A DNA stretch of 56,306 nucleotides from Anaerolineae bacterium (GTDB lineage Bacteria; Chloroflexota; Anaerolineae; Aggregatilineales; UBA3940). Location: contig JAFGOY010000079.1 in NCBI GenBank assembly GCA_016926255.1, positions 1 to 56,306 on the forward strand. Direction: 5' to 3'. The number at the start of each line of letters is the position of its first letter. Positions within the stretch are counted from its first letter, which is position 1. Below are positions 16,078 through 52,862 of the stretch, one piece after another. The notes beneath the pieces are model-generated. The model was not told where the DNA came from and made no database searches. It was given only the letters and a program-made list of their open reading frames with translations. Both the position numbers and the translations under genes were made by a program.

Positions 16078-17229
16078 TCACCCTAACCACTTCCTATACA
16101 CCCGGTGACGCTTGTACACTTCGGCCCCCGTCGCCTCCGCCAGATCAGCAAGCATCCGAGTGTTGTCTTCCTGCATCTGGACGATATCCACATGTTTGTA
16201 TGAGGAACCGAGAACCGTCTTGAACAATTCATCGTAGAGAATCGCGTTCGCCCCCAATCCCTGGTAAGCGGGAAGCACCGCGTTCCCGTTGAGATTCAAC
16301 CAGTCGGTGCGCCGACGTTCCAGAACAAGCGCCAGCCAGCCGAAGGGATACAACCGTCCTCTGGTGCGCTGAATCGCCGCCGACAGGTCAGGATAAGCGA
16401 AGCTCAAACCGATCAGTTCCTCGTCTTTGTTGAAGATGATTTTCATCAGTTCCGGCGTGGCGATGATCACCAACCGACTGATCAGTGCTTCGAGTTCCTC
16501 ATCGGGGATCGGCGTGTAAGCCCACACCGATGCAAAAGCCTGGTTGTATGCCTGCTGGATCACGCGGGCATATCGGCGCACCTGGGCTTTCGTTTTGAAA
16601 GCAGGCACGTAGAACCCTCGCCGCTCGCGGATTTTCTCCGCGATCCGCCGGATGCGCTCCGGGTAGAAGAGATCGGCCTGGGCGATATAACTCGATACGT
16701 AATCGACTTCTTTTTCCATACCGCCGACGGTTTCCCAGTGCTCGACGTAGTAGGCCGGATTGTACCCAACGCCCATCGCCGGACGATGCTCGAACCCGTC
16801 GACCAGCAGGCCGAGGCTGTCGCCGGTCAGGAAGCCTTTCGGCCCCACCAGCCGATCCAGTTCGCGCTGCCTCGCCCACGTCTCGACCGCATCGAACAGC
16901 AGTTGGGCAACATCGTGATTGTCGACCGCCTCGTAGAGATAGATCAGCGCATCCCGGTTGTGTCGATAATCGTTGTGCGGGCGATGCTCCAGTACAGCGA
17001 CGCGGCCAACAGCCTTTCGGTTTGCATCCCGAACCAGGTAGAAAGCGGCTTCAGAGTGCTTGAAGAACGCGAAATCGGGCCGGAAGCGTGCCCGCTCGCT
17101 GGGCATCAGGGGCGGCACCCATTGGGGAATATCTCGATAAATCTCAAAAGGTAAATGGATAAAATCACGAACATCGCGCCGGTTGGCGCGATTGACTTCG
17201 ATGACTTCTAGAGGGCTTTTTTCAACCAT
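16078..17229 (-). CDS. GNAT-like acyltransferase family protein, copy 1
   Basis: A 383-residue protein of the GNAT-like superfamily found next to diverse metabolic genes in many bacteria; the exact substrate is unknown. The N-terminal half holds FIHLPFEIYRDIPQWVPPL and a beta-strand region with VGRVAVLEHRPHN. The C-terminal half holds LNGNAVLPAYQGLGANAILYDELF, the pyrophosphate-binding style loop of acyl-CoA N-acyltransferases. It is clearly paralogous to the protein at 47780-48916: both share LPF-[ED]-[IL]-Y near the N-terminus, HRPA-x-GV-x-YN in the middle and an H-x-[VI]-YRK terminus. It lies 15 bases downstream of the universal stress protein gene, so the two are probably co-transcribed. 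Confidence 0.8.
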   Translation of the reverse strand: MVEKSPLEVIEVNRANRRDVRDFIHLPFEIYRDIPQWVPPLMPSERARFRPDFAFFKHSEAAFYLVRDANRKAVGRVAVLEHRPHNDYRHNRDALIYLYEAVDNHDVAQLLFDAVETWARQRELDRLVGPKGFLTGDSLGLLVDGFEHRPAMGVGYNPAYYVEHWETVGGMEKEVDYVSSYIAQADLFYPERIRRIAEKIRERRGFYVPAFKTKAQVRRYARVIQQAYNQAFASVWAYTPIPDEELEALISRLVIIATPELMKIIFNKDEELIGLSFAYPDLSAAIQRTRGRLYPFGWLALVLERRRTDWLNLNGNAVLPAYQGLGANAILYDELFKTVLGSSYKHVDIVQMQEDNTRMLADLAEATGAEVYKRHRVYRKWLG

Positions 17230-30672: not shown

Positions 30673-31878
30673 TCAACCAGTGGCGCTGACACCACTGATT
30701 ATCACATCCGCCAGAGCAGTCGATACGGCATCAAAACGCCCGCGCCAGGTATGGTGTCGGGCTTCGGCCATCCGCTCTCTATCACGCCCATCGGGGGAGT
30801 GTACCGCTTGTCCGACCAGTTCTACAAACTCGTCCGCGCTGCCCGCAATAGAAATCAAATGGGCAAACTGGCGTGCCTCCGGCATATCGACCGAAACGAT
30901 TGGCTTGCCGGTGGCAAGATACTCGTAGAGCTTGAGCGGGCTGCAATGCTCGGCGACGGCGTCCAGCACATAAGGATTGACACACACATCGAACGCTTTG
31001 ACATAGCCGGGCACATATTCATACGGCACGCGGCCCGTCATTACCACATTCGACAATCCCTTCAACGGTTCAAGATCGGCCAGCAGGTCCGCCGGGCCGA
31101 CCATCGCCACCGTCCATTCCGGGTTTTCCCGCGCGATTCGCGCCAGTAGGTGCGTGTCGATCCAGTAGTTGATCCCACCCAGGTAACCGATAACCGGGTG
31201 TTTGAGTCCGACCACCGCTTCCGCCACCGGCAGATCGGGATCGGCAGCGCGGGCCAGATGTTCCGCTTCGACGCCGTTGGGCACGACCTCGGTTCGCTTC
31301 GCCCACGCTTTGCGCTTCTCGGCCAGCGCCGGGTGGGTGGCGATGAACAGGTCAACCGCTTCGATCAACCGCCGTTCCAGCCGGGCGATCACCTTCGGGT
31401 GGATCAGCCCCTTCGACGCGGTGAAATCATCGACACACTCATAGACGGCGACCTTTTCGTCCAGTTTACCGATGAAGTCAGCAGAATGTGGTGTATACGT
31501 CCAGACGATTGGTTTGTCGAACCCCAGCCGCCGCAGTTGGGCGCGCAGCACGGTCAGCAAAAAGAAATTATTGATCTTATTGATCAGCCCCGACATCTGG
31601 AAGAAAGGCAGCACGATTGGCAGCGTAAAGACCCACAGGTTAGGGACGACTTCTCGCGGGCCTTTCAGCCAGCGCCAGATGCGGCTGAACTGGTTCCTGA
31701 TGTCGACCAGCCACCCGGCGAAATGCATCTGCTGTTCGACGTACAGCACCCGGTTACCGCCTTCCGCCCACCAGCGTGCGAAACGATGCTTGCGGGTCGG
31801 GAGCGCCTCCCAGTCCTGAGTTGAGAGGATGACGAAGTCCTCCCCACTGATCGGATGTAAAGGTTGGGTGTCTGTCAT
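30673..31878 (-). CDS. Glycosyltransferase, TuaH/GT4-like
   Basis: A 401-residue GT-B enzyme. The N-terminal FVILSTQDWEALPTRKHRFA and NRVLYVEQQMHF segments are typical of TuaH-like transferases of teichuronic acid and related polysaccharide loci. The region VWTYTPHSADFIGKL ... YECVDDFTA is also characteristic. The C-terminal donor domain has CSPLKLYEYLATGKPIVS, in which the Glu of the EX7E-type site is kept. It should add a sugar in the cytosol; specificity is unknown. The ATG overlaps the oxidoreductase stop by ATGA coupling. Confidence 0.88.
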   Translation of the reverse strand: MTDTQPLHPISGEDFVILSTQDWEALPTRKHRFARWWAEGGNRVLYVEQQMHFAGWLVDIRNQFSRIWRWLKGPREVVPNLWVFTLPIVLPFFQMSGLINKINNFFLLTVLRAQLRRLGFDKPIVWTYTPHSADFIGKLDEKVAVYECVDDFTASKGLIHPKVIARLERRLIEAVDLFIATHPALAEKRKAWAKRTEVVPNGVEAEHLARAADPDLPVAEAVVGLKHPVIGYLGGINYWIDTHLLARIARENPEWTVAMVGPADLLADLEPLKGLSNVVMTGRVPYEYVPGYVKAFDVCVNPYVLDAVAEHCSPLKLYEYLATGKPIVSVDMPEARQFAHLISIAGSADEFVELVGQAVHSPDGRDRERMAEARHHTWRGRFDAVSTALADVIISGVSATG

Positions 31879-34037
31879 GATCCGCCGCTGTCCGGATCAG
31901 CCGCCGGGCTTTCCTGCCATGCCCGCATGTCGATGGTCTCGCCGCCACGCATGCTCTCTCGCGCCACCAGTGCGATCCGCGTCGCCCGCAGGCCATCCAG
32001 CCCGCTGACTCCCAGCGCCGCCTTGCCCTGAATCGCCGCGCCGAAGTTTTCGAGCAGCGCCCGGTGTCCCTTGTCCGCCCCACCCCGGATCGGCTGTCCG
32101 TGCATTCTGCTGAAGGCCAGCGTCTTGAAATCATCCAGCACGGCCACGCCGCCTCCGGCGAATGCCTCTACCCGTTCCTTTGGGAAGGCCGGGTCGCCCC
32201 GCCCGGTGTAAGCAACCACTCCCAGCGAGTCATCCACAAAGCGCATCGTGATCACGAAGTCCTGCCCGTCCAGGCTGCCCTGCGCGCTGACCGTCAGCGG
32301 GTCGCCGCCGATCATCCCTGCCACAAAATCTACAAAGTGGACGCCCTCACCCAGCAGCCGACCACCACCCTCGTTGAGATCGTTCAGCCAGTGTGAAGCC
32401 GCCAGCGGCCCGGCATTGACCCGGAAGATCACCGTCTTTGGCCCGCCGATCTGGTCGAGGGCCGCCTTCAATGCCTGCGCAGTCGGGGCCATCCGCCGGT
32501 TGAAATCGACTGTCAGCAGTACCCCCGCTTCCTGCGCCGCCTCGATCATCGCCCGGCAGTCGGCAACGGTGAGCGCCATCGGTTTTTCGACCAGCACGTG
32601 TTTTCCTGCCCGCAGCGCCCTGATCGTCTGCCCCGCGTGTAGATGGTGCCGTGTGGCGATCAGCACCACGTCCACGTCCGGGTCGACCAGTGCCGCGTCG
32701 AGATCGGTCGTAGCAATCTTCGCACCAGTCTTTTCAGCCACCTGCGCCGCTGACACGCCGTCGCTGATGACTGCCTGTAAATCAAAGAATTCGCTCTTTT
32801 TGATGTTCGGCAGATGCACCGCCTTGGCGAAATTCCCCGCGCCGACCAGCGCCAATCCGATTTTTCCACGCTTTGGAGTCGATGCCCTGACCAGCACCTT
32901 CTCAACCGCAGGCACTCCTTCTGCGGTGGGTTCGCCATAAGTCAGCAGCACGCCGACTGCGCCTTCCTGCACCGCCTGATACGCTTCTCCGGCCTGCTCG
33001 ACCGGGAACTCGGCGGTAATCAGCGAATCGAGGTCGAGCTTGCCATCGGCGACAAGCTGCAAGAACGCCGCCATGTTGCGCTGTTCCGTCCACCGGACGA
33101 GGCCATACGGGTAGTCGATCCCCCGTTCTTCATAATCCCGGTCGTAGCGCCCCGGCCCGGTCGAACGCGAGATGACGAAGTCGAGTTCGCGGTTGTAGAA
33201 CTCCGTCCGTTCGATGTCCATCCCCATCGCCCCGACCATCACCACGCGCCCGCGCTCGCGGCACATCTTGAATGCCTCGTTGGTCGGTGAGCTCGATTTG
33301 GTCGCCGCGCACAGAATCACTTTGTCCGCGCCCAGCCCACCGGTCAGGGCCATCACCTGCGCGGACGCATCCCCCAGCGTCGGGTCGATGGTCTGCGCCC
33401 CGGAGAGCTTCGCCGCCAGTTCGCGCCGTTCACCCACCGGATCGGAACCGATCACCAGACAGCCTGCCGCATCCAGCAGTTGGGTGGTGATCTGCCCGAT
33501 CAGCCCCAGCCCGACCACGACTACCGTTTCGCCCAGCGACACCTCCGCCCGGCGAACACCTTGCAGCGCAATCGAACCGACCGAGGTAAACGCCGCCTGT
33601 TTGTAGGCCACGCCGTCGGGGATCGTCGCCAGCAGATTCTGCGGCACCGCATCGACTTCGGCATGGTTGGCGAATCCCGCCCCAGAGCAGGCCACGCGAT
33701 CACCGGCCTGAAAATTGCCCGATTCGCGCCCCGGCTCGATGATCATCCCCGCCGCGCTATAGCCCACCGGGAACCACGACTCGGAAATGTCCTGCACCTG
33801 CCCCGCCGTAAATTTGATCCCTTCGCGCAGGGCCAGTTGGATCGCCCTGCCGATCAACTGCGGCTGTTCCAGCGCCTTCTTGATCAGGCTCCCTCCGCCC
33901 GAAGCGGCGGTCATCTCCGTCCCGCTTGAGATCAATGAGGCATAAACGCGTACCAGTGCGCCATTCGCCGGGGCCGCCGGAGCCGGGACATCCTGTACCA
34001 GCAGCTTTCCTTTTCCATCAAAAAAGACTTGTTTCAT
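31875..34037 (-). CDS. Two-domain oxidoreductase (MDR dehydrogenase fused to Gfo/Idh/MocA)
   Basis: A 720-residue fusion. The N-terminal part (about 1-350) is a medium-chain dehydrogenase/reductase with a GroES-like domain and the nucleotide loop GLGLIG near 175; SSGTEM replaces the catalytic zinc Cys seen in true alcohol dehydrogenases. The C-terminal part (about 388-710) is a Gfo/Idh/MocA oxidoreductase with ALVGAGNFAKAVHLPN and the catalytic EKPMALT motif. This bi-domain family is known from surface polysaccharide clusters and is thought to modify nucleotide sugars, but its reaction is poorly defined. It overlaps the TuaH-like gene and follows the heparinase-like gene after a 122-base gap. 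Confidence 0.9.
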   Translation of the reverse strand: MKQVFFDGKGKLLVQDVPAPAAPANGALVRVYASLISSGTEMTAASGGGSLIKKALEQPQLIGRAIQLALREGIKFTAGQVQDISESWFPVGYSAAGMIIEPGRESGNFQAGDRVACSGAGFANHAEVDAVPQNLLATIPDGVAYKQAAFTSVGSIALQGVRRAEVSLGETVVVVGLGLIGQITTQLLDAAGCLVIGSDPVGERRELAAKLSGAQTIDPTLGDASAQVMALTGGLGADKVILCAATKSSSPTNEAFKMCRERGRVVMVGAMGMDIERTEFYNRELDFVISRSTGPGRYDRDYEERGIDYPYGLVRWTEQRNMAAFLQLVADGKLDLDSLITAEFPVEQAGEAYQAVQEGAVGVLLTYGEPTAEGVPAVEKVLVRASTPKRGKIGLALVGAGNFAKAVHLPNIKKSEFFDLQAVISDGVSAAQVAEKTGAKIATTDLDAALVDPDVDVVLIATRHHLHAGQTIRALRAGKHVLVEKPMALTVADCRAMIEAAQEAGVLLTVDFNRRMAPTAQALKAALDQIGGPKTVIFRVNAGPLAASHWLNDLNEGGGRLLGEGVHFVDFVAGMIGGDPLTVSAQGSLDGQDFVITMRFVDDSLGVVAYTGRGDPAFPKERVEAFAGGGVAVLDDFKTLAFSRMHGQPIRGGADKGHRALLENFGAAIQGKAALGVSGLDGLRATRIALVARESMRGGETIDMRAWQESPAADPDSGGS

Positions 34038-45066: not shown

Positions 45067-45501
45067 TCAGGAAGCCTGGGCAGCTTCTAACCTTTCAGCC
45101 TTGGCTACGATCTCGGCCAAATTGGTTCCTCCCAGCCTGTCGACCAGCATTTTTTGCGCATCGGTGAAGATCTCGCAGAATGGGCAGGCATCTGCCAAAT
45201 GGCAGACCTCGGGATCGCGCGTACAGCGATTGACCATGATCGGCCCGTCGATAGCCTCGATGACCTCCAACATGGTTATCATCTGCGGAGGGCGGGCAAG
45301 GCTAACACCGCCGCTTGCGCCGCGTGTTGCTTCCAGGATGCCCCTCACAACAAGCTGAGACACAATCTTGGCAAGAAACGGGAGGGGAATTTGCTGTCTT
45401 TCGGCGATGGTCGAAGTCGGGGCGCGCTCCCCTTCAGGAAGCCGTGCAACCTCGACAACAGCACGGAGGGCGTAATCAGCCTGTCTTGTTATTTCTAACA
45501 T
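45067..45501 (-). CDS. Rrf2-family regulator, IscR-like
   Basis: A 144-residue winged-helix regulator. MLEITRQADYALRAVVEVAR starts the DNA-binding domain, and TSTIAERQQIPLPFLAKIVSQL forms the recognition helix-turn-helix. The wing RGASGGVSLAR and Cys93, Cys100, Cys106 and Cys109 follow. The spacing C-x6-C-x5-C fits a [2Fe-2S] site as in IscR/RsrR-type proteins, so it likely senses iron-sulfur status, redox or NO. It is divergent from ssb; a palindrome at 45590-45603 could be an operator. No Isc or Suf genes lie nearby. Confidence 0.9.
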   Translation of the reverse strand: MLEITRQADYALRAVVEVARLPEGERAPTSTIAERQQIPLPFLAKIVSQLVVRGILEATRGASGGVSLARPPQMITMLEVIEAIDGPIMVNRCTRDPEVCHLADACPFCEIFTDAQKMLVDRLGGTNLAEIVAKAERLEAAQAS

Positions 45502-45834: not shown

Positions 45835-46236
45835 GTGTTTCAACAATGCATGATAATCGGCAACCTTGGGCGTGATCCTGAGATGCGCTATATGCCCGAT
45901 GGTCGCCCGGTGACCAATTTCACCGTGGCAGTGAACAAAACCTGGGCCAACGCCGATGGCACCCAGGGAGAAAAAACCTGGTGGTTCCGAGTTAACTGCT
46001 GGGGACGGCTGGCCGAGACTACCAACCAGTATCTCAAAAAGGGCCGCCAGGTTATGGTGATCGGCGAAGTTGACGCTTCGGCCTACATGCCAAAAGACGG
46101 CACCACTGAACCGAGAGCAACTCTCGAACTACGGGCGCAGGTCGTCAAGTTCCTCGGCGGGCGTGACGCGGTTGACGTTGATGATTTCGGCGGCGGCGGC
46201 AGTTCTTACCAAAGTGAAGAGGATATCCCGTTCTAA
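45835..46236 (+). CDS. ssb: Single-stranded DNA-binding protein
   Basis: A 133-residue SSB with one OB-fold (1-105: MIIGNLGRDPEMRYMPDGRPV, NCWGRLAE, LKKGRQVMVIGEV) and a short Gly/Ser linker. The acidic tip EEDIPF is the conserved partner-docking tail. It binds single-stranded DNA as a tetramer. The tail is short compared with typical 150-180 residue SSBs. The start is a GTG with an ideal AAAGGAGG. The translin-family gene follows after two bases, an unusual neighbour; rpsF and rpsR, the common ssb neighbours, are absent. It may be an accessory rather than the only SSB. Confidence 0.95.
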   Translation: MFQQCMIIGNLGRDPEMRYMPDGRPVTNFTVAVNKTWANADGTQGEKTWWFRVNCWGRLAETTNQYLKKGRQVMVIGEVDASAYMPKDGTTEPRATLELRAQVVKFLGGRDAVDVDDFGGGGSSYQSEEDIPF

Positions 46237-46238
46237 AC

Positions 46239-46880
46239 ATGAATAATCTTGATTCCATCGGCGATACTATTCGTACAGAGCTTGAGATGAAAAACGCTGC
46301 GCGGGATGCAGCGCTCACCCAATCCCGTCTGTTGATCCGGTACTGTGCCAACACCATCAAATCTGTTCATCGCAAAATGTGGGATGAGGCCAAAGAGGGC
46401 TTACAGACTGTCAAAGAGGCCGCCAATGGCCTGATCGAGAGCGTCAAAGATTATCCAGACCTGTACCACTCTGGATATACGCAGGACGCACTGAAAGAAT
46501 ATGTCGAAGCATTCGTGACCTATGCACTGGTTCGCGGTGAGCCGCTTCCCGGTTCGGAAGAACTGGGAGTGCCCGGCAGCACCTATCTGAATGGTCTGGC
46601 TGAAGCCGCCAGCGAGATGCGCCGTACCATCCTCGATATCATCCGGACAGATCACGATGAAAAAGCGGAGCGGCTTCTCGAAGACATGGATACGATCTAC
46701 AACCTGTTGATGACCTTTGACTTCCCCGACGCCATCACCTACGGCCTTCGACGTCGTGTCGACAGTCTGCGTGGAGTCGCAGAACGGACACGTGGCGATC
46801 TGACCAACAGCCTGCGCCAGAAGCGATTGCAGGCGGCCCTCAGCAATTTAGAGGAGCGCCTCAAAGATACTTTGGAATAG
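46239..46880 (+). CDS. Translin/TRAX-family protein
   Basis: A 213-residue all-helical protein of the translin superfamily, known mainly from eukaryotes and archaea. LKEYVEAFVTYAL (85-97) matches the TRAX segment that holds two catalytic Glu. TYLNGLAEAASEMRRTILD (115-133) matches the GLADLxGELRR-type motif. Glu87, Glu90, Glu122 and Glu126 therefore occupy the positions of the TRAX acidic quartet, with Glu for one Asp. The tail VDSLRGVAERTRGDLTN fits the last translin helix. Family members form ring-shaped or football-shaped oligomers that bind and, when acidic residues are present, cut single-stranded RNA or DNA. It has no ribosome site of its own and is probably coupled to ssb. Confidence 0.85.
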   Translation: MNNLDSIGDTIRTELEMKNAARDAALTQSRLLIRYCANTIKSVHRKMWDEAKEGLQTVKEAANGLIESVKDYPDLYHSGYTQDALKEYVEAFVTYALVRGEPLPGSEELGVPGSTYLNGLAEAASEMRRTILDIIRTDHDEKAERLLEDMDTIYNLLMTFDFPDAITYGLRRRVDSLRGVAERTRGDLTNSLRQKRLQAALSNLEERLKDTLE

Positions 46881-46890
46881 TCTCGCGGCG

Positions 46891-47157
46891 ATGAAACAAC
46901 TGGCGGAAAGGTTGGACGGCGATTCGCAGTATCCCACCCTGATCACCGTTCAGGGGATCGGAGCTTATCTCGTTTGTCACCGGGCCTGGTGGCTGGCCGA
47001 GGTACTGGACTATGCGCCGGACGATGAGAGCCGCCTGGCCCGTCAAATATTATCCCGACGAAAGAAGCTTGCTCAGCGATTGGCACTGATCGGCGGGCTG
47101 ATGATCGCTACTGCCATTCTGATCATGGTGCTGGGCCTGCTGCTGGGATCAAGCTGA
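46891..47157 (+). CDS. Cas4-like protein, N-terminal part with membrane helix
   Basis: An 88-residue protein. Residues 16-37 (TLITVQGIGAYLVCHRAWWL) match the beginning of Cas4/DUF83 proteins, where the first iron-sulfur Cys sits in a C-x-R-x-[YWF]-L context; here it is Cys29. The basic stretch RLARQILSRRKKLAQR replaces the usual G-x3-H motif, so motif I His is missing. A transmembrane helix follows at 64-86. The remaining Cas4 elements are found in the next gene, which starts one base after this stop but in another reading frame. The pair reads as one Cas4-like protein divided in the middle of a helical hairpin. Function unknown. Confidence 0.7.
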   Translation: MKQLAERLDGDSQYPTLITVQGIGAYLVCHRAWWLAEVLDYAPDDESRLARQILSRRKKLAQRLALIGGLMIATAILIMVLGLLLGSS

Positions 47158-47158
47158 C

Positions 47159-47689
47159 ATGGCCGCAGCCGGACAGATCATCCCGCTGCTGCTTTTCGTG
47201 ATCGGAGCGTTGCTTCTGATCGCCTCCTACCGCCTGACCCGCGCCATCCGCCCCACCGGGCATGTCGATCAGGTTGACGGCGACACTGAAGCCTATGTAC
47301 CACACGGCCTGCTGATTCTCGTCGAAGACAGGTTGGCCGGTCAGCCTCATGGTCTGCTGCGCTTGGCCGACAGGCAGCAGACCATTCCTATCCAGGTGAT
47401 CGACAGGGCATCTCCCGCTGTTCCCGATCAGGTTGCTGGCTGCCAGATGTCAGCCTTCTGCTATTTGGTAGAGGCGATCTACGATCAGGAAGTGCCCTAT
47501 GGGATGCTGCGCTATGCCGATCTCGACGTTCAGATCGACTGGACGCCGGAAAACCGTCAGGCATTGGCAGATCTGTTGTCCGAGATGCGCTTACAGGCAG
47601 AGGCGAGCAACGTTGACCGCTCTCATAACACCCCTTCGATCTGCGCGGCTTGTATCGTCAAAGAGGTTTGTGATCAGGCTTTAGTCTGA
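47159..47689 (+). CDS. Cas4-like protein, C-terminal part, nuclease residues replaced
   Basis: A 176-residue protein with an N-terminal helix (7-24) and a Cas4/DUF83 (PD-(D/E)XK) C-terminal region. PYGMLRYADLDVQIDWTPE and SAFCYLVEAIYDQEVPYG are strongly family-like. The three C-terminal iron-sulfur cysteines are Cys162, Cys165 and Cys171 (C-x2-C-x5-C). The nuclease triad is lost: the GxPD Asp reads His64 (GQPHGLL), and the PVE-x-K pair reads PIQVI, with Gln79 and Ile81. With Cys29 of the preceding gene all four cluster ligands exist. A membrane-bound Fe-S protein without nuclease activity is therefore expected. No cas1, cas2 or CRISPR lies in the window. Confidence 0.75.
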   Translation: MAAAGQIIPLLLFVIGALLLIASYRLTRAIRPTGHVDQVDGDTEAYVPHGLLILVEDRLAGQPHGLLRLADRQQTIPIQVIDRASPAVPDQVAGCQMSAFCYLVEAIYDQEVPYGMLRYADLDVQIDWTPENRQALADLLSEMRLQAEASNVDRSHNTPSICAACIVKEVCDQALV

Positions 47690-47779: not shown

Positions 47780-48916
47780 ATGCTGACTATCCACGAAATT
47801 GACACAACCAGACGCCGCGATGTCAATCGCTTCATACAATTCCCTTTCGATCTCTACGAAGGTTGCCCTCAATGGGTGCCAATGCTGGTCGGAGATTCGC
47901 GCCTGCAGCTCAACCGCAAAAAGAATCCCTTCTATAAATACAATGACGCCGCCTTCTTCATTGCTGAAAAAGACGGCAAGGACGTTGGGCGCATCGCTGT
48001 GCTGCATCCCAAATTCTTCAACGAGTTCAAAGGTACTCAAAATGTCCACTTCTACCTGTTCGACTGCATTGACGATCAGGAAGTCGCCAACCTGCTGTTT
48101 GATACAGCTGCAGCTTGGGGAACCGAGCGCGGCCTGAATCTCATCCGGGGTCCGCTGGGGTTCATGGCCCTTGACGGTTTCGGGATGCTGGCGAAAGGCT
48201 TCGACCATCGCCCGGCAGTCGGGGTGCCGTATAACTACGATTACTATCCCCGCCTGACTGAAGCCTGGGGCTTTGAACTCGAAGAAAGGGTCTATTCTGG
48301 CTATCTGGACGTAGCAGAGATTAGAAATACCTTCCCCGAAAAAGTCCTCCGGCTCTCCGATAAGATCAAAGAACGCTATGGATTTGAGATCAAGACATTC
48401 AAGACAAAGCGTGAACTCGTAAAATGGGCAACCCCGCGCCTCGCAGATCTCTACAATCGCACATTGACCCACATCGCGGGCGACACGCCCGTCACGCAGG
48501 AGGAAGCCGAAGTTGTCGCCGAAAGCGCCATGACCATTACCGATCCCAGGCTGATCAAGATCATCATGAAAGACGATGATATTGTCGGCTTTCTGTTCTG
48601 CTTCCTGAATATCTCCGACGGCCTCAAAAAATCACGCGGGCGGCTGTTCCCCTTCGGCCTGATTCACATCCTGAACGACCTGAACAATACCATCTACATC
48701 GATCTGAATGGAATGGGCGTCCTGCCCGAATACCAGGGACAGGGCGGAACGGCAGTAATGTACGCCGAGCTGTACCGGTCACTTGAGGCGTTTCCTCGCT
48801 TCAAGCATGCCGATGTCGTCCAGATATCGGAGTTCAACTCACAGAGTCTCAACGAGTTAAAACGCTTTGGAGTTGATATGTACAAAGCGCACCATATCTA
48901 TCGTAAGGAACTCTGA
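47780..48916 (+). CDS. GNAT-like acyltransferase family protein, copy 2
   Basis: A 378-residue paralogue of the protein at 16078-17229. Shared segments include FIQFPFDLYEGCPQWVPML, VGRIAVLHPKFFN, the central GFDHRPAVGVPYNYDYY and the acyl-CoA-binding-type loop MGVLPEYQGQGGTAVMYAELY. The terminus is HHIYRKEL. The substrate is unknown; the family is annotated only as N-acetyltransferase-like. GAGGAG lies before the ATG. It has its own 90-base upstream gap and a strong terminator, so it appears to be transcribed alone. Confidence 0.8.
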   Translation: MLTIHEIDTTRRRDVNRFIQFPFDLYEGCPQWVPMLVGDSRLQLNRKKNPFYKYNDAAFFIAEKDGKDVGRIAVLHPKFFNEFKGTQNVHFYLFDCIDDQEVANLLFDTAAAWGTERGLNLIRGPLGFMALDGFGMLAKGFDHRPAVGVPYNYDYYPRLTEAWGFELEERVYSGYLDVAEIRNTFPEKVLRLSDKIKERYGFEIKTFKTKRELVKWATPRLADLYNRTLTHIAGDTPVTQEEAEVVAESAMTITDPRLIKIIMKDDDIVGFLFCFLNISDGLKKSRGRLFPFGLIHILNDLNNTIYIDLNGMGVLPEYQGQGGTAVMYAELYRSLEAFPRFKHADVVQISEFNSQSLNELKRFGVDMYKAHHIYRKEL

Positions 48917-49441: not shown

Positions 49442-50512
49442 ATGAGTAAAGTCCGGGTGGCGATAATTGGTGTTGGAAACTGCGCCTCCTCGCTGGTTCA
49501 AGGTGTGCAATATTATAAGAATGCCAAAGATGATGATGTCGTCCCTGGCTTGATGCATGTCAATCTGGGTGGCTATCACATCAGCGATATCGAGTTCAGT
49601 GCGGCTTTTGATATCGACGTGAAGAAAGTCGGCCTCGACCTGTCGAAAGCGATCTGGGCCGGGCCAAACAATGCCCTCAAGTTTGCCGATGTCCCCAATC
49701 TTGATGTTCCGGTGCATCGCGGCATGACGCATGATGGCCTGGGCAAGTATCTCAAGATGAAGATTACCAAAGCGCCAGGGGCGACATCGAATATCACCCA
49801 GATTTTACAGGACACGAAGACCGATGTCGTTATCAACTACCTCCCGGTCGGCTCGGAGCAGGCGACCAAGTGGTATGTTGAGCAGGTGCTTAATGCGGGC
49901 TGTGCCTTTGTAAACTGCGTCCCGGTTTTCATCGCCAACCAACCTTACTGGCAGCGGCGATTCGAAGAACGCGGCCTCCCGGTGATCGGCGATGATATCA
50001 AAAGCCAGGTCGGAGCGACGATTGTCCACCGCGTTCTCACCCATCTTTTCGAGCAGCGCGGCGTACAGCTCGAACGCACCAGCCAGCTCAATGTCGGCGG
50101 GAACATGGACTTTTACAACATGCTCGAACGGGAGCGATTGGAAAGCAAGAAAATCAGCAAGACCAACGCCGTGACTTCTCAGGTTGATCGAGAACTCCCC
50201 GCCGACAACGTCCACATCGGCCCCAGTGACTATGTCGCCTGGTTGACCGACCGCAAGTGGGCCTATATCCGCATGGAAGGGCGCAGTTTCGGTGATGTGC
50301 CGCTCAACGTCGAATTGAAGCTCGAAGTCTGGGACGGTCCCAATTCAGCCGGGGTCGTGATCGATGCCGTGCGCTGTGCCAAGCTCGGCCTGGATCGCGG
50401 GATAGGCGGTGCATTGGAAGCCCCAAGCAGCTACTTTATGAAATCGCCGCCGACCCAATATCCGGACGATGTCGCCAGGCAGAAAACCGAGGCATTCATC
50501 AACCAGGAGTGA
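49442..50512 (+). CDS. ino1: Myo-inositol-1-phosphate synthase
   Basis: A 356-residue NAD-dependent enzyme that turns glucose 6-phosphate into inositol 1-phosphate, the first step of inositol lipid and inositol-solute formation. The NAD loop is [16 protein letters not shown] at 6-21. [39 protein letters not shown] and the conserved [13 protein letters not shown] are diagnostic. The length fits the short prokaryotic form. The ATG at 49442 has AAGGAG upstream; the open frame before it is not protein-like. A terminator follows. The oxoamine synthase at 51660 nearby raises the possibility of inositol-containing sphingolipids. Confidence 0.95.
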
Positions 50513-51659: not shown

Positions 51660-52862
51660 CTAGATGATTTCACACTCTTTGCCGACCCGCGCCAGAATGT
51701 CAAGTGCCTTCTGAAGTTGTTCTTTTGTATGGGTCGCCATGTAGCTGGTACGCAGCGATGATTTGTTTGGCGGAACCGCCGGTGGAATGAACACATTCGT
51801 ATACACACCGGCATCGAACAGCGCCCGCCAGAACATGATCGCCCGCATATCATCGCCGACGATAATCGGGATAACCGTCGTCTCGCTGTTGCCGATATTG
51901 AATCCCAGTTCAGACAAACCTTTTTTCATGAAATTGGCGTTATCCCAGACCTGCTGAACATAGTCCGGGTTGTTCTCGATGACATCCAGGGCAGCCAGTA
52001 CCGCAGCAACGTTCCCAGCCGGGAGACTGGCGCTGAAAATCATCGAACGGGCATGGTGCTGGATATAATCGATGACTTCCGCATCCCCGGAGATATGCCC
52101 CCCAATCGACGCGAACGATTTGCTGAACGTCCCCATAATCAGGTCTACATCGTCGGTGACGCCGAAGTGGGCTGCGGTGCCTCGCCCCTTCCCCAGCACG
52201 CCAACGCTGTGTGCATCATCGACCATCAGGCGCGCCCCATGTTTCTTACATACCTCGATCAGATCGGGGAGCGGCGCGATATCGCCGCCTGCGCTGTAAA
52301 CTCCGTCGACGACCACCAGCATTCCCGCATCGTTAGAAATCTGGCCCAGCACCCGGTCCAGGTCTTCGATGTCGTTGTGCTTGAACCGTTTCATTTCGCC
52401 CATTGCCAGCATGCAGCCGTCGATGATGCTGGCGTGGTCTTCCTTGTCGGTGATGACGACATCCCCACGCCCAACGACCGCCGAAATGGTGCCGACGTTG
52501 GTCTGGTAGCCGGTGCTGAATACCAGCGACGCCTCTTTCCCGACAAAGTGAGCAAGCCGTTCCTCAAGCTCATGATGCAGTGCCAATGTGCCGTTCAGAA
52601 ACCGGGAGCCGGTGCAGCTCGTCCCGAAACGCCGCACCGCATCAGCCGATGCTTTGACGACATCCGGGTGTGAAGTCAACCCCAGGTAGTTGTTCGACCC
52701 CAGCATAATAATCTCGCGTCCCTGGTATTTGACGGTCGTTCCCTCGGAGTCCTCGAAGGCAATAAAATATGGATACCAACCTTCTGCTCTCGCGTCTCTG
52801 GCGCGGGTAAAGTTTCTTGCTTTTTCAAAAATGTCCAACTGCTCACTTTTTTCGATTCCCAT
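51660..52862 (-). CDS. Alpha-oxoamine synthase, possible serine palmitoyltransferase
   Basis: A 400-residue PLP enzyme that condenses an amino acid with an acyl-CoA. The PLP Lys is 248 in GTFSKSFASIGG, the ring-stacking His is 143 in DHASIIDG, and Asp215/His218 are in VDDAHSVG. The family includes BioF, glycine C-acetyltransferase (Kbl), ALA synthase and serine palmitoyltransferase (SPT). The N-terminus GWYPYF and the C-terminal PPAVPPNKSSLRTSYMATHT look closer to bacterial SPT sequences than to Kbl, judged from memory. No other sphingolipid gene lies in the window, and no BioA/BioD or threonine dehydrogenase is near, so the choice is open. Confidence 0.88.
   Translation of the reverse strand: MGIEKSEQLDIFEKARNFTRARDARAEGWYPYFIAFEDSEGTTVKYQGREIIMLGSNNYLGLTSHPDVVKASADAVRRFGTSCTGSRFLNGTLALHHELEERLAHFVGKEASLVFSTGYQTNVGTISAVVGRGDVVITDKEDHASIIDGCMLAMGEMKRFKHNDIEDLDRVLGQISNDAGMLVVVDGVYSAGGDIAPLPDLIEVCKKHGARLMVDDAHSVGVLGKGRGTAAHFGVTDDVDLIMGTFSKSFASIGGHISGDAEVIDYIQHHARSMIFSASLPAGNVAAVLAALDVIENNPDYVQQVWDNANFMKKGLSELGFNIGNSETTVIPIIVGDDMRAIMFWRALFDAGVYTNVFIPPAVPPNKSSLRTSYMATHTKEQLQKALDILARVGKECEII

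Follow-up and report, generated by a model that had tools for sequence, protein, structure and literature searches.

Solo-Cas4 proteins have been noted in "many Chloroflexi" (Hudaiberdiev et al. 2017, PMC5704561), and all Cas4 proteins in that study were reported to possess the catalytic motifs together with four cysteines; no mention of transmembrane forms or of translin was found in its main text. Proteins of the translin/TRAX family are known from Archaea (AfTRAX of Archaeoglobus, 3zc0/3zc1; NEQ131 of Nanoarchaeum, 5jr9), where the TRAX gene is linked to that of SepRS, an aminoacyl-tRNA synthetase (PMC5424206). The Translin-Trax complex prefers RNA (PMC5085120), the catalytic residues of human TRAX are E126, E129, D193 and E197 (PMC9753400), and fission yeast that lacks translin shows raised transcription-associated recombination and genome instability (PMC9246224).

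In the window, by which we mean the whole 56,306-nt stretch of Anaerolineae DNA that was analysed (contig JAFGOY010000079.1), genes for a single-strand binding protein (SSB), a translin-family protein and two short Cas4-related membrane proteins follow each other on the forward strand. The original prediction had held that this combination matches no known system and, in the open-access papers searched, none of such make-up was found described. The same search yielded nothing on a split or transmembrane Cas4, on an ssb-DUF3467-translin-Cas4 unit, on the function of DUF3467, or on Chloroflexi translin beyond the SepRS work. Solo-Cas4 in Chloroflexi is thus known, while the split transmembrane form and the gene unit described below are undescribed in the literature covered.

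A largely vertically inherited gene set of Anaerolineae

The features of the locus are:

45067-45501, reverse strand: Rrf2-family regulator with three cysteines (NRCTRDPEVCHLADAC); PF02082, 113.7 bits
45820-45830, forward strand: strong Shine-Dalgarno sequence AAAGGAGGAG ahead of the ssb GTG, read from the sequence
45835-46236, forward strand: ssb paralogue (SSB-A), 133 aa, GTG start; PF00436, 102.5 bits
46239-46880, forward strand: translin/TRAX-family protein (PRK14562), 213 aa; NF011160, 264 bits; AfTRAX 3zc1, E=6e-21
46891-47157, forward strand: Cas4N, 88-aa ORF, N-terminal half of a Cas4-type protein split over two genes; alignment of cysteine and motifs, homologues matching positions 1-47 of the Cas4 model
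47159-47689, forward strand: Cas4C, 176-aa ORF, transmembrane helix and Cas4 core; Cas_Cas4, E=0.0013; PADLOC Cas4, E=1.5e-7; AlphaFold (AF2) fold

The four ORFs with their coordinates, their strand, their intergenic gaps of 2, 10 and 1 nt and the restriction of a strong ribosome site to ssb were all reproduced from the sequence, and the gene identities first proposed agree with the family scans (PF00436, NF011160, AfTRAX, Cas_Cas4) and with the match of an AlphaFold model to Cas4. A promoter and terminator scan, the counts of which were near the shuffled expectation, found no forward terminator inside the four-gene unit.

Neighbourhoods were compared for 80 translin genes, 40 of them from the window's order, 18 from the rest of its class and 22 from outside the class. 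An ssb gene lies co-directionally upstream of translin in 22 of the 40 and in 11 of the 18, which makes 33 of 58 for the class, and in none of the 22 neighbourhoods sampled outside it. Chance adjacency of ssb and translin was rejected, as the order recurs across many families and about 0.0004 such adjacencies would be expected per genome. The conserved synteny in Chloroflexota that the original prediction had called for is thus found, and the genes are not adjacent in this genome only.

In relatives the unit is longer and reads ssb - DUF3467 - translin - Cas4N - Cas4C, so that the four-gene make-up first described is correct for the window and misses a fifth gene of the relatives' unit. Cas4N-Cas4C is found downstream of translin in families f5, f6, f10, f11, f84, f85 and f87; a single genome from a different class shows it too. 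Cas4C loci number at least 80; among the 80 named loci in the matches listed, all from Chloroflexota, translin is present at 27, the four-gene set at 17 and the complete five at 13. Anaerolinea thermolimosa IMO-1 (L180) possesses ssb-translin-cas4N-cas4C. In genomes of the window's own family, translin closely follows ssb, mostly with gaps of -1 to 9, and linkage is absent in some families of the same order (f2, f86). Of 262 genomes from outside the class, 128 have translin; among the 57 that have Cas4C, it occurs in 54 (P=1.5e-16, with no correction for common descent), and the two genes are mostly non-adjacent there. From these comparisons we conclude that the four genes of the window represent a local form of a gene set which Anaerolineae have, for the most part, inherited vertically.

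Translin or SSB is often present without Cas4, and the Cas4 pair is often located elsewhere, so the parts of the unit can function separately. Away from translin, the Cas4 pair adjoins genes of RseP-like site-2 proteases (L142, L150, L152, L153, L156) or a group of NAD kinase, B-box zinc-finger membrane protein and RecN genes (L140, L144, L145, L148), identities that were judged from sequence in both cases. Other genes are also seen behind translin. In family f3 (L107, L108, L111, L113, L114), a putative membrane protein of ~206 aa, for which no Pfam match was found, occupies the usual place of Cas4N-Cas4C, and a ~220-aa protein that we judge from its sequence to combine FHA and winged-helix domains follows translin or a fused Cas4 at L060, L062, L065, L079, L085, L091 and L093. 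Two clusters of antisense ORFs (c7, c18) were set aside as artefacts of greedy ORF picking.

Genes for RNase Z, Rrf2, GNAT and inositol-3-phosphate synthase are the neighbours of the unit in the window. The Rrf2 gene is divergent from ssb at a distance of 333 bases, and its product scores 69 bits against the IscR equivalog model (cut-off 207). It had been proposed to add Fe-S or redox control; the divergent gene and its three cysteines are present as described, and the regulator lies outside the conserved unit, since it adjoins this divergently in one sampled relative (L060) and is ~2 kb off in two others (L068, L071), all of the same family. It was thus rejected as a general member, and control of the window's unit by Rrf2 is at most a local possibility.

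Other parts of the window deserve brief mention. Two GNAT-type paralogues, 37% identical, are encoded at 47780-48916 (+) and 16078-17229 (-), inositol-3-phosphate synthase at 49442-50512 (+) and a serine palmitoyltransferase-like enzyme at 51660-52862 (-). The ceramide synthase of bacteria belongs to the GNAT proteins, and these genes possibly represent a sphingolipid/inositol-lipid group adjoining the ssb-translin unit. A 720-aa ORF at 31875-34037 (-) combines one half that resembles alcohol dehydrogenases with another of Gfo/Idh type; it is located in a large cluster of glycosyltransferase/asparagine synthase type at ~20.8-42.3 kb.

A Cas4-type protein in two halves

As their alignments show, Cas4N and Cas4C together correspond to a single Cas4-type protein, which is interrupted at an inserted transmembrane (TM) hairpin. 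In relatives, Cas4N matches positions ~1-47 of TIGR00372 and Cas4C positions ~57-179, complementary stretches on separate ORFs, which bears out the earlier description of the protein as split. When compared to canonical one-chain Cas4 of the same class, the motifs are collinear and the break occurs directly after the G..xH motif, flanked on each side by a TM helix that the canonical protein lacks. Such helices were found in about 94% of Cas4N and of Cas4C, and the two window proteins have one strong hydrophobic helix each, in line with the membrane anchoring that had been predicted. Cas4N carries the motif-I His site and the first Fe-S cysteine (in the motif YLVCHRAWW in the window), which is followed by its TM helix, while Cas4C carries the D / E-x-K / QxxxY core and three cysteines (C-x2-C-x5-C). 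Judging from the order in which helices and domains follow each other, the two cores are probably cytoplasmic and the break probably lies outside.

A sequencing frameshift or an assembly error was rejected as the cause of the split. Among the 80 named Cas4C loci in the matches listed, 68 have separate halves, with Cas4N upstream of Cas4C, and in 21 the two are at least 150 bases apart; at the wide-gap loci examined, a gene for a YkuD or a repeat protein lies between them. Natural Cas4N-Cas4C fusions exist in L085 and L091. Because separate halves recur, with other genes in between at wide-gap loci, and because fusions also occur, we consider the split to be real and to be the old and usual form in Chloroflexota.

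The intervening genes are of two kinds. An L,D-transpeptidase (YkuD) gene, its identity established by a Pfam search with one sequence, is located between Cas4N and Cas4C inside the translin operon at L099, L112, L169, L196, L205 and L207. In another group of Anaerolineales (L163, L171, L172, L176, L179, L185, L191 and others), the position is taken by a helical-repeat protein of ~210 aa with a weak match to Adaptin_N.

Cas4C of the window scores under the cut-offs of PF01930 (19.3, with 22.7 needed) and TIGR00372 (18.4, with 65 needed); among its relatives, that of L082 passes PF01930 and many exceed the TIGR00372 cut-off. Its AF2 model (pLDDT 88) superimposes on the Cas4 part of the Cas4-Cas1 fusion 7mi4 with Z=13.2 and an rmsd of 3.1 over 108 residues, so that the predicted fold is that of Cas4.

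A further observation concerns the catalytic residues. The Fe-S cysteines are invariant (92/92 for Cas4N, 109/109 for each of the three on Cas4C), and all four are present in the window. The D, E and K of Cas4C are kept in 108, 105 and 108 of 109 homologues, respectively, and the motif-I G..xH of Cas4N in 87 of 89, and most relatives keep the full PD-(D/E)xK nuclease motif. In the window, H, Q and I stand at the three positions and motif I is lost as well, the sole case of joint loss of D, E, K and the motif-I His among about 109 homologues; three loci of the same order (L081, L085, L091) have lost only the E (E to L). With these residues gone, the Cas4-like protein of the window is, by its sequence, no plausible nuclease. 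The original view of an Fe-S Cas4 relative is upheld as far as the four cysteines are concerned, and had overlooked that the catalytic residues are gone. The two genes are not obviously decaying, as their codon-position composition is normal, with GC values by codon position that match those of neighbouring genes. Within the window's own family, the pair is kept only in the window genome, with no Cas4C match in 8 other genomes and, being both alone in its family and nuclease-dead, it may be heading for loss.

The protein resembles solo-Cas4 (PF01930/TIGR00372) in its fold, its four Fe-S cysteines, its QxxxY motif and, in the window, the lack of CRISPR neighbours, and relatives also share the full PD-(D/E)xK motif. 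It differs in being encoded by two genes, with TM helices flanking the break on either side, in its linkage to ssb, DUF3467 and translin, and in the loss of the catalytic residues from the window copy. The inactivated Cas4 that serves as nucleocapsid protein of TTV1 (cited in PMC5704561) is likewise a reused, nuclease-free Cas4 derivative; however, that is a viral structural protein, whereas the window encodes a bacterial membrane protein which keeps its cysteines.

Translin, SSB-A and DUF3467

The translin of the window stays under the curated cut-offs of NF011160 (264, with 291 needed) and PF01997 (22.5, with 25.9 needed), and is clearly related to the solved AfTRAX (E=6e-21). Homology to archaeal TRAX/C3PO extends across most of the domain and the acidic active-site positions are kept, with E87, E90, E122 and E126 aligning to E126, E129, D193 and E197 of human TRAX. 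One catalytic Asp is replaced by Glu (E122 in the window) throughout the aligned Chloroflexota set and, for this reason, activity of the protein as an RNase is likely, not certain. Translin is 60-72% identical to members of the window's own family; it was detected in only three of 14 control genomes, all archaea. While archaeal TRAX is linked to SepRS (PMC5424206), the Chloroflexota protein is linked to SSB and Cas4.

SSB-A of the window shares with bacterial SSB the OB domain and an acidic C-terminal tip (...EEDIPF), the last two residues of which, P132 and F133, are conserved in 50 of 50 sequences. There are three ssb genes in the window genome, including one between rpsF and rpsR (L161). 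In a tree of 74 SSB sequences, a long branch with full support sets the housekeeping type apart, and the SSB-A clade, the one linked to translin, largely tracks taxonomy. That the window's ssb is the housekeeping copy was therefore rejected; SSB-A belongs to a clade of accessory paralogues, distinct from the rpsF-ssb-rpsR copy. SSB-A and DUF3467 are also seen together without adjoining translin (L277, L279, L283).

The gene often found between ssb and translin in relatives encodes a protein of ~110 aa that belongs to DUF3467 by score (PF11950, 61.9 bits, cut-off 25). No counterpart was found in the window genome, and the idea of a copy hidden elsewhere in it was rejected for want of a match. 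The structural model has the order beta-beta-beta-alpha; a fold search gave no confident match and returned only PUR, PC4 and COMM entries with Z below 5, so the weak likeness to PUR/PC4 single-strand binders should be taken as a lead only.

Proposed function and alternative explanations

Of several possible explanations for this gene set, we tentatively favour, at a little under an even chance, a membrane-tethered complex which processes single-stranded nucleic acids for genome maintenance and in which the two Cas4 halves are joined as one Fe-S protein. Cas4N and Cas4C would associate on the inner side of the membrane and would complete the Fe-S cluster, and in relatives the active site, in trans. 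SSB-A would coat exposed ssDNA, and SSB-A, DUF3467 and translin may all bind single-stranded DNA or RNA. A putative C3PO-like oligomer of translin would bind and cut RNA associated with the exposed ssDNA, possibly at transcription-replication conflicts or RNA:DNA hybrids, while Cas4NC would trim ssDNA ends in relatives. In the window, a non-cutting Cas4NC could act as an Fe-S anchor, scaffold or sensor, or could be in the process of being lost, and any remaining cutting would be left to translin. A role on the DNA side is suggested by the intact Cas4 motifs of relatives, the SSB tip and the RecN/NAD kinase and RseP neighbourhoods; the translin step is supported by the increase in transcription-associated recombination upon translin loss in fission yeast (PMC9246224). 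As to novelty, we think it possible, with slightly less confidence, that this is an undescribed Anaerolineae complex where a Cas4 nuclease is distributed over two membrane proteins that share one Fe-S cluster and active site in trans, accompanied by a dedicated SSB, DUF3467 and a C3PO-type RNase, and where the Cas4 part is a non-catalytic Fe-S scaffold or sensor in some lineages, including that of the window.

The strongest rival, which is compatible with this general picture, is that the window's Cas4 pair is a dying remnant with open frames and that the working unit consists of ssb-translin only. The unique joint loss of D, E, K and the motif-I His, the 8 genomes of the family without a Cas4C match, and the fast divergence of Cas4 (~25-38% identity to relatives, compared to 60-72% for translin within the family) would all be expected of a remnant. 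However, neither frame is interrupted, codon-position composition is normal in both, and the pair has retained its four Fe-S cysteines, its two TM helices and its fold, a retention that neutral decay would not favour; moreover, a partial catalytic loss (E to L) is seen again in L081, L085 and L091 of the same order, implying that non-catalytic forms may be selected. We regard a mere remnant as rather unlikely. A role restricted to RNA appears improbable to us. Translin would then mature or degrade RNA (tRNA fragments, structured RNA), with SSB-A and DUF3467 as chaperones of RNA or ssDNA and the Fe-S Cas4 as tether and redox sensor, which would be in keeping with the TRAX-SepRS linkage in archaea (PMC5424206), the preference of Translin-Trax for RNA (PMC5085120) and the weak resemblance of the DUF3467 model to PUR/PC4 proteins (Z below 5), but the intact Cas4-type nuclease motifs of most relatives indicate DNA, and the SSB tip (P132, F133) is of the canonical acidic type, which binds DNA-maintenance proteins.

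Antiphage defence and DNA uptake, which the original prediction had also offered, gained no positive support. An antiphage or spacer-acquisition-like system that seizes single-stranded invader DNA at the membrane would account for the homology to Cas4 (the PADLOC matches of the window's Cas4C are to Cas4 and Cas4-Cas1 type models only), and solo-Cas4 genes stand beside restriction-modification genes in DPANN archaea (PMC5704561). We nevertheless consider it highly improbable: there is no cas1 or cas2 beside the window's Cas4 genes and no known defence gene among its neighbours, no PADLOC model matches SSB, translin, Cas4N or DUF3467, many of the genomes carry separate canonical Cas4 genes, and the distribution is broad and mostly vertical across the class, unlike that of patchy defence islands. 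The membrane anchoring of the Cas4 pair, and the roles that SSB has in competence in other bacteria, could also be reconciled with uptake, where the pair would degrade or process incoming strands that are passed to SSB, as in natural competence. This we find the least credible reading, and scarcely probable at all, as no competence gene was recognised among the annotated neighbours of the unit, the catalytic core is C-terminal to the TM helix and probably cytoplasmic, and the Cas4 core of the window appears inactive.

The gene set matters beyond the window. Translin is an ancient protein whose DNA and RNA functions are disputed. Since a conserved, presumed operon of bacteria links it to SSB and to a protein of the Cas4 type, its ancestral role can be put to the test in the named strain Anaerolinea thermolimosa IMO-1. 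The unit also supplies a working context for the uncharacterised DUF3467 family. If our reading is true, an Fe-S site and an active site divided over two membrane proteins would represent a new architecture within the Cas4 family, and the dead copy in the window suggests that the Fe-S part can outlast the nuclease.
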